A program made the position numbers and the translations under genes. A stretch of 64,000 bases of DNA from Clostridiales bacterium (GTDB taxonomy: Bacteria > Bacillota > Clostridia > Lachnospirales > Lachnospiraceae). Positions 22,852-46,454 of this stretch are shown piece by piece. Positions within the stretch are counted from its first letter, which is position 1, and each line of letters opens with the position of its first letter. Below the pieces are notes generated by a model, which was given only the letters and a program-made list of their open reading frames with translations, was not told the origin of the DNA and did no database searches. Location: NCBI GenBank assembly GCA_020860565.1, contig JAJBUA010000067.1, forward strand, positions 1 through 64,000, in the 5' to 3' direction.

Positions 22852-23445
22852 TCATGGAATCCTGCGTGCAATCACCATCAGCCGCCCATTTGCCTGTGTA
22901 TACTCACAGGTAACAAGAGCCAGCAGCTCGTCACCGAAACTGACCTCTACACCGGTATCAAAGAACTTTTTTTGCGCCGCGATCTCCCACGCCTCCTGAA
23001 ACTCTTTTTTGTTTGCGGGAAAGAGTACTTTCTGCCACGGCACCTGATTTCCTTCCGCGTCCAGACGAAGCACCATCACAATCTCATAGCTGCCCGCCTC
23101 CGTCAGCGTATCAAACTGAATATACGGGTGCTGCTGATAATACGAAACCAATGTGTAATTCTGCAGAGCCGCGAACATCCGCCCATTTCTCATATGATGA
23201 CCGTAAATCAGCAGACTGCTCCATGAATCAAATTCATAGCCGGTATCATACAGATCCGTACCATACTGCGCCGTATACCAGATCACGGATTCCAGATCCT
23301 GATCCCAGATCCGGTAGATAATATCGGTTTCCGATCTGGTATAAGCCGCCTCAGAAGGCACTGCGCTAAACGGCAGATTCAGTGAGGTAACCACAAGCAC
23401 AGCAATCAGAACTGTTGACAACCGCCGCAGAAAGCCCGAACGCAT
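22852..23445 (-). CDS. Class B sortase
   Basis: Signal/TM N-terminus; LLIYGHHMRNGRMFAAL (catalytic His), LLALVTCEYTQANGRLMVIARR (catalytic Cys and Arg). Confidence 0.85.
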   Translation of the reverse strand: MRSGFLRRLSTVLIAVLVVTSLNLPFSAVPSEAAYTRSETDIIYRIWDQDLESVIWYTAQYGTDLYDTGYEFDSWSSLLIYGHHMRNGRMFAALQNYTLVSYYQQHPYIQFDTLTEAGSYEIVMVLRLDAEGNQVPWQKVLFPANKKEFQEAWEIAAQKKFFDTGVEVSFGDELLALVTCEYTQANGRLMVIARRIP

Positions 23446-23485
23446 GCTTCGCCTTTTCCCGGTTCAGTTGGCGTAAGAATATCTT

Positions 23486-23893
23486 CTACTCATCCCGCTC
23501 CCTCCCCTCTCTGCCTTGTTCCACGCGTCTCCTCGCCACGAGCACGATCATCATGCCGCCGGCCGAAACCAGAACAAGGATCAGCAATAAGAGAAAATGC
23601 GTCACATCTCCCGTCTTTGCCAGCAGATCCGCAAACGGCGCATCGCCATCCTCAAGCGGATAAAGTTCGCCGCCCGGCGTCCCGGAATCTCCGGAAGAAC
23701 CAGAATCGATTCCTGGTCCGGAACCGGAACTTCCGCCGGAGCCCGAACCCGAGCTTCCACCGGATCCACCGCTGTGATCACGTCCACCGGAACTCCCGCC
23801 ACCCGAGCCTGACGTTTCCTCCGGTGCAGTCGTCTCCTCCGGCACCGTTGGCTCCTCCGGGGAATCCTGTATTCTGTTATTCCATCTGCCCAC
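23486..23893 (-). pseudogene. C-terminal remnant of a sortase-anchored surface protein
   Basis: VGRWNNRIQDSPEEPTVPEETT... Ser/Gly-rich spacer, then LLAKTGD + hydrophobic stretch + ARRR cell-wall sorting signal. No signal peptide; only a GTG start; frame blocked by TGA just upstream. Confidence 0.6.
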
Positions 23894-23916: not shown

Positions 23917-24732
23917 CTACTGCCAGCTTCGCTTCACTACCTCACTTTTCAGATAAAACCTGCCCTTCTCCGAGTTCTTAACCGGGTGAAGCTTTCCGCG
24001 TTTTGTCAGATCATTAATGTTTTGCCGGGAACAACCAAGGATTTCCGCCGCCTGCGCAGCACTGATCACGCAGTCCTCTACAAATCTTCGGAAATCGGAT
24101 GTGATAAGCGGTACCGTCTCACCCATCTCGTACAGTGCGTAATCCATAATGTCGCGGTTTTCATCCCACGTCACACCATAGCCGCCGACCATAACATGAA
24201 CATGAGGGAAAAATTCTGTTTTCTTTAATAAGATCTGAAGCTCCCTGTGGTCTTCCAGATATTTCTTTAAATAGCATTTTTTTACGAGTCCATTCCGGAA
24301 AAATACCAGAAGAACATATTCACCCAAAACCAGAACATCCTCTACCCGTCTGCAAAAACGCTCCCGGATGTACTCCGGCAAATCATTTTCCCCGAGCGAA
24401 AGCAGATAATAATCATCCTGCGCACATCGACCTCCGGCAATCGTCAGCAGTGCAAATTCATCATACTCCGCTAGCCCATTATCACGCAGGATATATGCCA
24501 GATTCTGGCGATCCGGCGGCACAATTCTCTGTTGCACCCAGACCCTGCTCCAGTAAGGATTTACCGTCTTCTCCCCTCGTTTCACAAACGAAGACAGCAG
24601 CAGCGGAGTCTCCCACGGATCCGCATGATCCGGCAGTTCAATATAGAATTTCTTTCCTGTTTCGTAGTAAAAAAGATATGCCAGATCTTTTTGTCCGACG
24701 TCTGTCTCATCGCGAACAGCGAAAATCTTCAT
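23917..24732 (-). CDS. HipS-like / DUF2442-like / HTH (excisionase-type) protein, putative antitoxin
   Basis: N-term resembles HipA_N (IVPPDRQNLAYILRDNGLAEYDEFALLTIAGGRCAQDDYYLLS), middle resembles DUF2442 (LVFFRNGLVKKCYLKKYLE...GGYGVTWDENRDI), C-term ISAAQAAEILGCSRQNINDLTKRGKLHPVK. Confidence 0.6.
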   Translation of the reverse strand: MKIFAVRDETDVGQKDLAYLFYYETGKKFYIELPDHADPWETPLLLSSFVKRGEKTVNPYWSRVWVQQRIVPPDRQNLAYILRDNGLAEYDEFALLTIAGGRCAQDDYYLLSLGENDLPEYIRERFCRRVEDVLVLGEYVLLVFFRNGLVKKCYLKKYLEDHRELQILLKKTEFFPHVHVMVGGYGVTWDENRDIMDYALYEMGETVPLITSDFRRFVEDCVISAAQAAEILGCSRQNINDLTKRGKLHPVKNSEKGRFYLKSEVVKRSWQ

Positions 24733-25531
24733 ACGTACACCACCTTTTCCAGATCATCTCCCAGATCCTGTTTTGCAGATTCGCCGGAATGATGTTATCA
24801 AGTCCTTCCATAATTACGGTTTTATCCTCCACCCGCAGCGGACTGACGCGCGGATACTTTTCCACTGGAATCAAATGCAGATTTTCCCAGACAGATCGTG
24901 ATCCGATATACGTATTGACACGCCTGTCCTCCATTACATCAAAAGCATTGACGGAAGCATCTGACAGACAATGAAATAAAAGTGACAACCCATGATCAAA
25001 AAGCGGAGCAAGCCGAATTGATTTCCTGCCAGAATTCCTCAGTACCTCAATATTTGCCCCATGACGGTCCCGGTTCAAAATCAGATAATCAACCAGAAAC
25101 ATCTGATAAATATACTCTGACCATCCATTCCGTATACAAAAATCCAAAGGTGTTTCCCCATTCTGGCGCTCATTTTCATAATAAACATCCAAAGCGACTT
25201 TATTTTCGCCCGGCTGTTTGAAATCCTCAGACGCGCAAAGATAGGTCTCAAACCTTGTTTCATTGATCACTACATCCGCATGGATCAGCTGATAATGCAG
25301 ATGATCTATCCCTAAAATATTCAACAAACGGTCAGCAATCAATTCATTTACACATTCATGGCCGATCACTCCACGAATATTGTCAAAATTTGACAGCTTA
25401 TAATAAATTTTTCTGCCGCCCAGTTCAGAATAAGACTTTAAAAACGATCCTGCTGTCCCGGAAGAATTGCGAATTCTCGACCACGACAGATACGTCAGAT
25501 CCTGCTTCTCCAAAATAAGTTCCGTCATCAT
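24707..25531 (-). CDS. Compact HipA/HipT/CtkA-like kinase, putative toxin
   Basis: SSGTAGSFLKSYSELGGRKIYYKLSN, GHECVNELIADRLLNILGI, DYLILNRDRHGANIEVLRN, LAPLFDHGLSLLF; 26-bp overlap with downstream ORF. Confidence 0.75.
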   Translation of the reverse strand: MMTELILEKQDLTYLSWSRIRNSSGTAGSFLKSYSELGGRKIYYKLSNFDNIRGVIGHECVNELIADRLLNILGIDHLHYQLIHADVVINETRFETYLCASEDFKQPGENKVALDVYYENERQNGETPLDFCIRNGWSEYIYQMFLVDYLILNRDRHGANIEVLRNSGRKSIRLAPLFDHGLSLLFHCLSDASVNAFDVMEDRRVNTYIGSRSVWENLHLIPVEKYPRVSPLRVEDKTVIMEGLDNIIPANLQNRIWEMIWKRWCTYEDFRCSR

Positions 25532-25553
25532 GATGAATCACCTCATACCAATC

Positions 25554-25582
25554 ATTCTACACAAGCACTTGTCATGTGTCAA
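25554..25582 (-). promoter_or_regulatory. Sigma-A-type promoter with internal palindrome for the HipT-like module
   Basis: Minus strand TTGACA-17 nt-TAGAAT; spacer carries ACAAGTGCTTGT (25561-25572). Confidence 0.7.
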
Positions 25583-25663
25583 GTCTTATTGTTGAGCGCA
25601 TAAAAAAAGAATACCAGCCACCATAAAATGTCTGATACTCTTCTATAAAAATCAAATTAATAT

Positions 25664-44274: not shown

Positions 44275-45099
44275 TCACACGTCAGCTGACTGATTTGTAG
44301 TCTGTAACGTGATCACCACAACTTCCGGTGGGTTACATACCCGGAAGAGGAAATGATTGCCCAGACCGCGGCTGACGATCATCTGCTTTCCCCTTTCTGC
44401 AAAATATCCCGCATCATATTTCGGGAAAAGAGTCAGATCCGGCGAAAGCACTCCGCCCAGATACGGGATGCGCAGGATCCCGCCGTGGATATGCCCGGAC
44501 AGGGTCAGATCGGCTCCCCAGTCGCGGTATGACGGAAAATACAGGGGATTATGAGCAAGAAGAAGGTTAAAACAATCTTTCCCTGCCGTACCCAGCAATT
44601 CTTTCGTATCTTCCGCAGAAAAATATGCGCCCTTCCGGTATTCCCCCAGCGGATCCTTATAATAGACCATTCCCGTTGTGAGACCATAAAGCCGGATCAG
44701 CGAGCCTCGTCTGGATACCGTCTCCCGGCTGTTATCCAGCACATGAACTCCCTGTCCGCGCAGTTCACGCAGAAAATCGGGCGGAGTCATATCCGTCCGC
44801 AGCGTCTGCTCATGGTTGCCGATGCTGTAATAAACGGGGAAATCCTTCGTCAGTTTCCCGCATAAACGGAGCGCCCGTAAAGCCGCATCCCTGGTATTAT
44901 CCGCCATATCCCCGGTCATGGCGACCAGATCCGGATGGATTCCCTGCACTGCGCGGATCAGATTCTCATTTTTCCTTCCGAAAACTGCTCCATGCAGATC
45001 GGATAAATGCACGATCCGGTATCCGTCAAAGGCTGCCGGAAGTTTCTTTGAATGTATCGTATAATGACTGACCTGAAACTTTCTATTACTCTTCTTCAT
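44275..45099 (-). CDS. Metallophosphoesterase (YkuE/YaeI-like)
   Basis: IVHLSDLHGAVFG, AMTGDMADN, SIGNHEQ, LLAHNPLYFP, LTLSGHIHGG; start may be 45099 or 45135. Confidence 0.9.
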   Translation of the reverse strand: MKKSNRKFQVSHYTIHSKKLPAAFDGYRIVHLSDLHGAVFGRKNENLIRAVQGIHPDLVAMTGDMADNTRDAALRALRLCGKLTKDFPVYYSIGNHEQTLRTDMTPPDFLRELRGQGVHVLDNSRETVSRRGSLIRLYGLTTGMVYYKDPLGEYRKGAYFSAEDTKELLGTAGKDCFNLLLAHNPLYFPSYRDWGADLTLSGHIHGGILRIPYLGGVLSPDLTLFPKYDAGYFAERGKQMIVSRGLGNHFLFRVCNPPEVVVITLQTTNQSADV

Positions 45100-45895
45100 T
45101 GATATGTTCTTTCTTTTTCGATTCCTGAACAGCATCTGTTTGTTTTTTCATTTCCTTCAAATAAGCCAACACCGAAGATTTTTTCGCCCGACCTGTCTGC
45201 CGTTCTAAAATGATGTTTATATTTTCTGTTTTTATTCCCTCAGGATTTGTCCTCTGAAAATCCAACAAAACTTCTTTTGCCTGTATTTCGCTTTCCCTGA
45301 TTTGCGCATAAATCGATCCATATTTTCCTGTCTCCAGAATATTACGAATAAATGAAACCGAATCGTGTGGAACAAGATTCCAATTATCATACAAATTTTT
45401 AACAGCAGTATCGATCATCTCATAACTAACCGGCTTTCCTATCGCATCCTGTTCAGCAAGAATTCCCACGATATCCGAAAGGTCATTTTTATACTTTCTT
45501 CCTGCCATCAGTTTCATGGCAATCAGATATTCTCCGGTTATCATTCTCACACGAAGTACCTGATTAAAAGTTTTGTATGGGACAGAATACTGGCTAAGGC
45601 GGTGAGAGTAAGAATCTGTCTTCACAAAATCTGCATTTAACCATCCATTTGGCAGGCCAAAACGATCCCCTACATGGTTGATTGCATCTTTCATAATGGA
45701 AACCGCAGGGAGAATTGCATCAATGTCGGTGGTCATTTCCCGGAATCCATAGTTTTCAATGACAGCAGCACCGCCGATCAGAATAATCTCAACAGGAACA
45801 TTCTTACCTCCGAGTTTTTTATATTCTTTGGATAGTTCTTTCAAATATATGTCCAGATTTTCCTTAGTAAATATCTTACTATTTTCATTTGACAT
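45086..45895 (-). CDS. Nucleotidyltransferase (DUF6036/AbiEii-like), putative toxin
   Basis: EIILIGGAAVIENYGFREMTTDIDAILPA (GG..x..Y..R..T.DID NTase motif), YLIAMKLMAGRKYKNDLSDIVGIL; start MSNENSK. Confidence 0.8.
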   Translation of the reverse strand: MSNENSKIFTKENLDIYLKELSKEYKKLGGKNVPVEIILIGGAAVIENYGFREMTTDIDAILPAVSIMKDAINHVGDRFGLPNGWLNADFVKTDSYSHRLSQYSVPYKTFNQVLRVRMITGEYLIAMKLMAGRKYKNDLSDIVGILAEQDAIGKPVSYEMIDTAVKNLYDNWNLVPHDSVSFIRNILETGKYGSIYAQIRESEIQAKEVLLDFQRTNPEGIKTENINIILERQTGRAKKSSVLAYLKEMKKQTDAVQESKKKEHINEEE

Positions 45896-46454
45896 TTCTG
45901 ATCTCACTTTCCACAATATTAAAGCGGATAAATTCCGGAATTGCGCTTTTGCAGGCCTCTTCTTTCGGTGTATCATCTTTTTCCACTGCACACAGCGCTA
46001 TAATACCTGCCGGATAAATCCTGTCAGCAAGTCTCTGCCCCCGCAAATCGTTATATTCCTCGCAGAGAGGCACATTGTTCTCTCTGCTGATATAATCCAC
46101 CATAGCCAGCAGATACAAACTTTCCGGATACCACTTTTTGCGGTAATAAATACGAATATCATTACTTTCCAGTGTTTCAATCAGAAAATTAATATCGCCC
46201 AGATTTTTCAATTTATGACATACATTACTTTTAAATAATTCAAAGGAACACCGTTCCTGATTCTCAGCTTCCAACAGTTCTTCCATTGACAGGTGAAGTT
46301 CCTGTGCAAGTCGATATACGGTCCCCGCACTGCATTTTGCAAGACTTGTTTTGCCGTTGCAAATGTCATTCAAAGTTGTATATGGAATATTGCTGCTTTT
46401 AGAAAGATAATATTTTGTCATGCCTCGTTCAGCAAGCAAATCTGTAATAATCAT
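45885..46454 (-). CDS. XRE-family HTH protein, putative antitoxin/autoregulator
   Basis: LLAERGMTKYYLSKSSNIPYTTLNDICNGKTSLAKCSAGTVYRLAQELHLSMEELL; GGAGG RBS; 11-bp overlap with NTase gene. Confidence 0.85.
   Translation of the reverse strand: MIITDLLAERGMTKYYLSKSSNIPYTTLNDICNGKTSLAKCSAGTVYRLAQELHLSMEELLEAENQERCSFELFKSNVCHKLKNLGDINFLIETLESNDIRIYYRKKWYPESLYLLAMVDYISRENNVPLCEEYNDLRGQRLADRIYPAGIIALCAVEKDDTPKEEACKSAIPEFIRFNIVESEIRNVK

Follow-up and report, generated by a model that had tools for sequence, protein, structure and literature searches.

The window analyzed in this work is a stretch of 64,000 nucleotides (positions 1 to 64,000) of contig JAJBUA010000067.1 from the Clostridiales bacterium assembly GCA_020860565.1. 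Its minus strand carries two genes overlapping by 26 bp: the kinase gene (24707..25531), which encodes a 274-aa Ser/Thr kinase of the HipA superfamily that lacks the N-subdomain-1 and represents a putative toxin, and the partner gene (23917..24732), which encodes a 271-aa putative antitoxin and repressor. A previous sequence-only reading had placed two such ORFs at 23917-25582, with the kinase gene first and the partner downstream, and on both points our analysis agrees with it. The two ORFs are not a product of chance, given that the kinase is conserved throughout the host's bacterial family and that a scan of species-representative genomes yielded 410 stretches encoding its relatives. The module stretch has a G+C content of 0.45 vs. 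0.50-0.57 in its immediate surroundings. In the window, the apt gene lies upstream of the module and a cobalamin gene lies beyond it. In the one congener sampled (genome G172), apt and the homolog of the cobalamin gene are separated by 91 bp, and neither module gene is present in the stretch between them, suggesting that the module is either an accessory insertion here or was lost in the congener. Such an insertion (or loss) would comprise the module and two small ORFs at 22852-23893. By eye, these adjoining minus-strand ORFs encode a Sortase-B-like protein (197 aa) and a short Ser/Gly-rich protein with LAKTG and a membrane segment near its end. Elsewhere on the minus strand of the window (45086-46454), there are overlapping genes for a 189-aa Xre-type HTH protein and a 301-aa nucleotidyltransferase-like protein, a pair that by eye is similar to AbiE-type toxin-antitoxin pairs. 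The same genome also contains a second HipA-like kinase match (G000:C124:362-766; 33% identity) in a frame of 417 aa.

The 274-aa ORF contains the previously reported kinase motifs SSGTAGSFLKS, NRDRHGANIEVL, and APLFDHG, and it is devoid of the HipA N-terminal subdomain, as had been claimed, the Gly-rich loop beginning at residue 23. Positions S23, K45, E59, E63, D179, and the block N153-R-D-R-H-G-A-N160 are invariant in 30 kinase homologs. The Gly-rich loop SSGTAG (residues 23-28) is encoded at 25448..25465, the invariant catalytic motif NRDRHGAN (residues 153-160) at 25052..25075, and the invariant Mg-binding motif DHG (residues 179-181) at 24989..24997, all on the minus strand. By analogy with Ser150 of HipA and Ser57/59 of HipT (PMC10627512), the invariant S23 is a candidate autophosphorylation site. 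The AF2 model of the kinase (pLDDT 92) retrieved CtkA (4e-9), HipA (9e-6), and HipT of HipBST (1.6e-5) in Foldseek searches, and the HipA_C domain was matched at an E-value of 4e-4, which is below the Pfam cut-off. Having the Gly-rich loop, the catalytic and Mg-binding motifs, and the kinase fold, the protein is a HipA-superfamily kinase. Matches of the kinase to ankyrin and to a staphylococcal inhibitor were short and chance-like, and were dismissed. NCBIfam contains no family for either the kinase or its partner, apart from a weak excisionase HTH.

The kinase had been described as HipT-like, a designation that is not borne out by profile and tree analyses. The family profile does not match HipT significantly (E-value 0.12 or worse); it matches HipI at E-values of 8e-10 to 1e-5, and further kinases associated with the type of HipS-like domain seen in the partner at 1e-54 to 6e-10. 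In the maximum-likelihood tree, for which the program warned that long branches meet, HipI and the window kinase family are set apart from HipA and HipT (support 100/99), the window family forming a separate clade that adjoins the sampled HipI proteins and is not within them. Among solved structures, the nearest kinase both by sequence and by fold is CtkA (3akj/3akk/3akl); CtkA serves another bacterium as an effector kinase, and the resemblance carries no implication of a common role. Sequence comparison thus places the window kinase not with HipT but on the side of the HipA-like kinases that includes HipI and CtkA.

The partner protein (AF2 model pLDDT 93) has three domains, namely a HipS-like domain (residues 1-112; 24397..24732), a DUF2442-like domain (residues 131-202; 24127..24342), and an HTH_17/MerR-type DNA-binding domain (residues 222-268; 23929..24069), all encoded on the minus strand. 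The fusion of these three parts in one protein, including the DUF2442-like segment and the HTH, had been recognized in the sequence-only reading and is supported here, the HipS-likeness indirectly via HipN. The HTH_17 match (residues 224-265) is above the cut-off (E-value 4e-7). The DUF2442 match is sub-threshold in the window partner (1.5e-3) and reaches 4e-9 in homologs; DUF2442 was found in 15 of 30 homologs at E-values up to 1. The C-terminal half of the partner resembles, by both profile and fold, the putative DNA-binding protein NE0471, whose structure has been solved (2auw). Pfam analysis of the partner revealed DUF2442 and HTH, and no HIRAN domain; a phmmer search of the full partner against PDB gave no matches. 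The named top matches of the partner among viral structures in Foldseek are HTH proteins, and in PHROGs its C-terminus corresponds to an excisionase-type HTH (8e-15). The excisionase was rejected as the main reading of the protein, which has two other domains besides the HTH and whose gene is linked to that of the kinase. The best-conserved part of the partner is its N-terminal 112 residues: the mean frequency of the commonest residue is 0.67-0.73 in the HipS-like domain, 0.51 in the DUF2442 region, and 0.62 in the HTH region. Invariant residues within this N-terminal part are R69, P72, R75, Q76, N77, Y90, G101, and D106.

The relation of the N-terminal domain to HipS was assessed by profile comparison. 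With hhalign, this domain matches the HipS-like domain of HipN with a probability of 90-95% and E-values of 1e-6 to 4e-8; the scores to HipN are 41-50 vs. at most 19 for column-shuffled profiles, and the probabilities of the controls are at most 2.5%. The confident part of the match spans the helical region (residues 66-114) and not the strands. HipN in turn matches HipS/HipA_N with a probability of 90%. However, comparing the domain with HipS/HipA_N directly gave a probability of 0.2%, and no signal appeared with either the 100-sequence set or widened sets. Thus, the relation of this domain to HipS is supported indirectly, by way of HipN, whereas the earlier alignment by eye of the partner N-terminus with HipA_N finds no support in the direct comparison. 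A search of PDB sequences with the N-terminal-domain profile returned nothing relevant, and the Foldseek search with the whole partner produced a weak match to HipA (prob 0.51, E-value 0.24). The modeled domain consists of three strands, helices, and a final strand, an order similar to that of HipS, which is built of four strands, three helices, and a fifth strand (PMC10627512); relative to HipS, the model lacks one strand and has an additional helix.

Further evidence is provided by the variants of this domain in other genomes. In loci L025, L028, and L228, the HipS-like domain occurs as a stand-alone protein of 112-130 aa downstream of the kinase, which defines the domain boundary used above, and in L230 it is located upstream of the kinase. 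In L233:671-2028 (minus strand), a 179-aa Xre-HTH-HipS-like fusion precedes a kinase of 271 aa; the respective genome (G207) also has a module of the window type. In two more cases, L229:676-1965 (minus strand) and L231:1114-2508 (plus strand), the entire module is contained in one polypeptide (429 and 464 aa) with the order HTH, HipS-like domain, and kinase, one HTH being MerR-like and the other Xre-like. The HipS-like domain in these single chains is directly N-terminal to the kinase, in the position of the HipA N-subdomain-1. We consider it improbable that the N-terminal domain is unrelated to HipS and that the likeness reflects a short convergent motif. Such a reading would account for the failure of the direct comparison and for the different numbers of strands and helices in the model; yet, it is at odds with the HipN match and its clean controls, with the similar length and element order, and with the fusions that place the domain at the HipA N-subdomain-1 position. 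The HipN match, the HipS-only partners, the single-chain fusions, and the element order together support HipS-likeness of the domain. Downstream of the 112-aa HipS-only partner of L025, we also noticed by eye what looks like a HicA/HicB pair.

In HipS, the segment that extends to the active site of the kinase contains Glu63 and Trp65, and in the Legionella structure the contacts are made by helices 1 and 2 and the loop between them (PMC9325769). The window partner has the loop RIVPPDRQN (residues 69-77; 24502..24528, minus strand), in which R69, P72, R75, Q76, and N77 are invariant. By analogy with the characterized proteins (PMC10627512, PMC9325769), we infer that this loop would occupy the position of the HipS loop extending to the active site of the kinase.

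The module had been interpreted as a rearranged HipBST system. The hipBST modules of E. coli O127 and Legionella share with the window module the same three functional parts, an HTH, a HipS-like domain, and a kinase without the N-subdomain-1, and the kinase-blocking position of the HipS-like domain is probably the same. Modules of the hipBST type are also present in the bacterial family of the host (L146, L147, L148, and L150; HipS about 109 aa, HipT 313-330 aa), including a HipB-like ORF in L146 and L148. A true HipBST, derived by fusion of hipB with hipS and relocation of the product behind hipT, would account for these shared features; nevertheless, we regard this scenario as very improbable. 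The known hipBST is composed of three separate genes in the B-S-T order with a HipT-clade kinase and without DUF2442, whereas the window module has two genes with the kinase first, an additional DUF2442 domain, an HTH of the HTH_17/MerR-like and not the Xre type, and a kinase that has no significant HipT match and is separated from HipT in the tree. In addition, direct similarity to HipS is undetectable, and the corresponding loop has an invariant R-Q-N in place of the HipS residue Trp65. A kinase of the hipBST type would be expected to phosphorylate TrpS.

The nearest relatives of the window module are rather hipIN and hipJS, that is, the kinase-first pairs with a downstream HipS-HIRAN or HipS partner published in 2021 (Gerdes et al.; PMC8262856). 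As in hipIN, the downstream partner starts with a HipN-type HipS-like domain; however, it ends in DUF2442 and HTH instead of HIRAN, and the kinase belongs to a clade separate from the sampled HipI. With hipJS, the window module shares the order of the kinase and the downstream HipS-like antitoxin, and the layout of hipJS is that of the HipS-only loci L025, L028, and L228. The window partner has two further domains, and while the HipJ-linked HipS branches with the HipS of HipBST according to the published description, HipN is the only protein to which the window domain shows detectable closeness. The arrangement of residues 131-268 of the partner, with an HTH after DUF2442, is found in NE0471-type proteins (2auw), and in Thermus plasmids (PEM; PMC12724237) a DUF2442 protein is the apparent antitoxin of a DUF4160 protein; both the NE0471-type proteins and the DUF4160/DUF2442 pairs are without a HipS domain and without a Hip kinase. 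None of the organizations listed in PMC8262856 contains DUF2442, and those parts of the literature mentioning DUF2442 that we consulted do not describe its fusion to HipS. Thus, the kinase-first order with a HipS or HipS-HIRAN partner is already known from hipJS and hipIN, and what is new here is a family with DUF2442-HTH replacing HIRAN and with a palindromic operator that incorporates the -35 box.

This operator, ACTTGACACATGACAAGT, is located at 25567..25584 on the minus strand, with the core TTGAC-N4-GWCAA at 25569-25582; the outer end of the core, position 25582, coincides with the right limit of the region noted originally. The predicted promoter consists of the -35 hexamer TTGACA (25577..25582, minus strand), which overlaps the left operator arm, and the -10 hexamer TAGAAT (25554..25559, minus strand), separated by a 17-bp spacer, the latter being 22 bp before the kinase start. 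Among 83 upstream regions, 73 contain an exact copy of the core TTGACN4GWCAA (shuffled sequences: mean 0.04, maximum 1) and 78 a copy with up to one mismatch (mean 0.92, maximum 3), counts that are not independent events as the loci are related. Thirteen of the 83 regions contain two exact copies, and in L070 both half-sites carry a matched change. The operator was not found in the 300 bp upstream of the HipS-only loci L025 and L028, nor in the stretches around L228 and the decayed copy L029 (L242 and L241, respectively). The existence of operator-free HipS-only versions in some Clostridia indicates that autoregulation is not obligatory. As far as the DNA itself can tell, the window module is an overlapping two-gene operon with a predicted autoregulatory operator, as is characteristic of type II toxin-antitoxin systems. 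Strict pairing of a kinase with a regulator and a conserved operator would also be expected of a signaling pair, in which the kinase phosphorylates the HTH partner and thereby alters transcription of the operon or of other genes. We find this explanation unlikely, because the extended operator form occurs in the genome once, at the module, in a pattern search, which reveals no regulon beyond it, and because some of the kinases are paired with a HipS domain without an HTH.

Relatives of the kinase were identified in about 30 of 299 sampled genomes of the host's bacterial family, with 34-70% identity and nearly all at full length. Among the best 80 of the 410 stretches, the partner is directly downstream of the kinase in 78, usually with the same 26-bp overlap, and the remaining two loci are at contig ends. 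No third gene is common to the loci, and the neighbors vary (11 loci inspected by eye). This combination of constant linkage and varied neighbors indicates that the unit consists of two genes. Relatives of the kinase are also encoded on a Pseudobutyrivibrio plasmid and on viral contigs. One viral contig (L032:5001-5513) has a 170-aa ORF in which residues 1-84 of the kinase are followed by residues 185-271 of the partner; it appears to be an internal deletion and was rejected as a new architecture. By eye, this ORF is followed by terminase-like genes.

A role in phage defense would fit the kinship with hipIN, for which such a role has been proposed and which corresponds to the PADLOC candidate system PDC-M03 (M03A/B). 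In anti-phage abortive infection, the HipS-like domain would silence the kinase until DUF2442 or the HTH, on sensing a phage factor, sets the kinase free; such a function is compatible with a toxin-antitoxin mechanism and differs from it in purpose and trigger. The kinase matches PDC-M03A over the kinase core (3e-10), and the HipS-like part of the partner matches PDC-M03B (3e-4). The patchy distribution, the empty site in the congener, and the copies on the plasmid and viral contigs point in the same direction. On the other hand, the loci inspected by eye have no consistent defense-island neighborhood, the partner is without HIRAN, and PDC-M03 is itself a candidate system, of which no mention was found in the literature searched. 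An anti-phage purpose is therefore a tentative assignment, and one that we would give real but lesser weight.

Altogether, we consider it likely that the two genes form an autoregulated type II toxin-antitoxin module, in which the HipS-like domain counteracts the kinase and the HTH acts on the operator. This interpretation is based on the linkage of the genes, the intact catalytic motifs, the domain composition of the partner, its homology to HipN, the operator, and the absence of the operator where the HTH is absent. The kinase probably stops growth, which it would do by phosphorylating a cellular target. The HipS-like domain would most likely dock on the N-lobe of the kinase, as HipS and the HipA N-subdomain-1 do, placing its invariant loop (R69, P72, R75, Q76, and N77) near the Gly-rich loop and the active site and so blocking the kinase. 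DUF2442 may serve as a second antitoxin-type module, providing either dimerization or a second contact. The HTH presumably binds the palindrome containing the promoter's own -35 box, and such binding over the -35 box would allow the partner, or its complex with the kinase, to repress the operon. The trigger of the system is possibly a phage.

We further propose, with roughly even chances of being right, that these modules constitute a widespread, unannotated family of Hip kinases in Clostridia, in which one protein combines two antitoxin-type domains, HipS-like and DUF2442, with a repressor and the operator is built into the -35 box. This family would be part of a larger group whose HipS-like domain changes its position around the kinase, being separate, upstream, downstream, or joined to it and an HTH in a single chain. 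The HipA-, HipBST-, and hipIN-like layouts would then be interchangeable forms of one regulatory unit, and the role of the HipS tryptophan in blocking the kinase would fall to a residue of the invariant R-Q-N loop. The operator pattern is a simple means of finding and classifying further members. As HipS-only relatives exist, the partner should be separable along natural boundaries into kinase-facing, DUF2442, and DNA-binding parts. The family adds many gut Clostridia to the range of HipA-like toxin-antitoxin systems. It also bears on whether kinase inhibition in the manner of HipS extends to the HipS-like domains of the HipN branch, and by which residue, and offers a way into what DUF2442 does.
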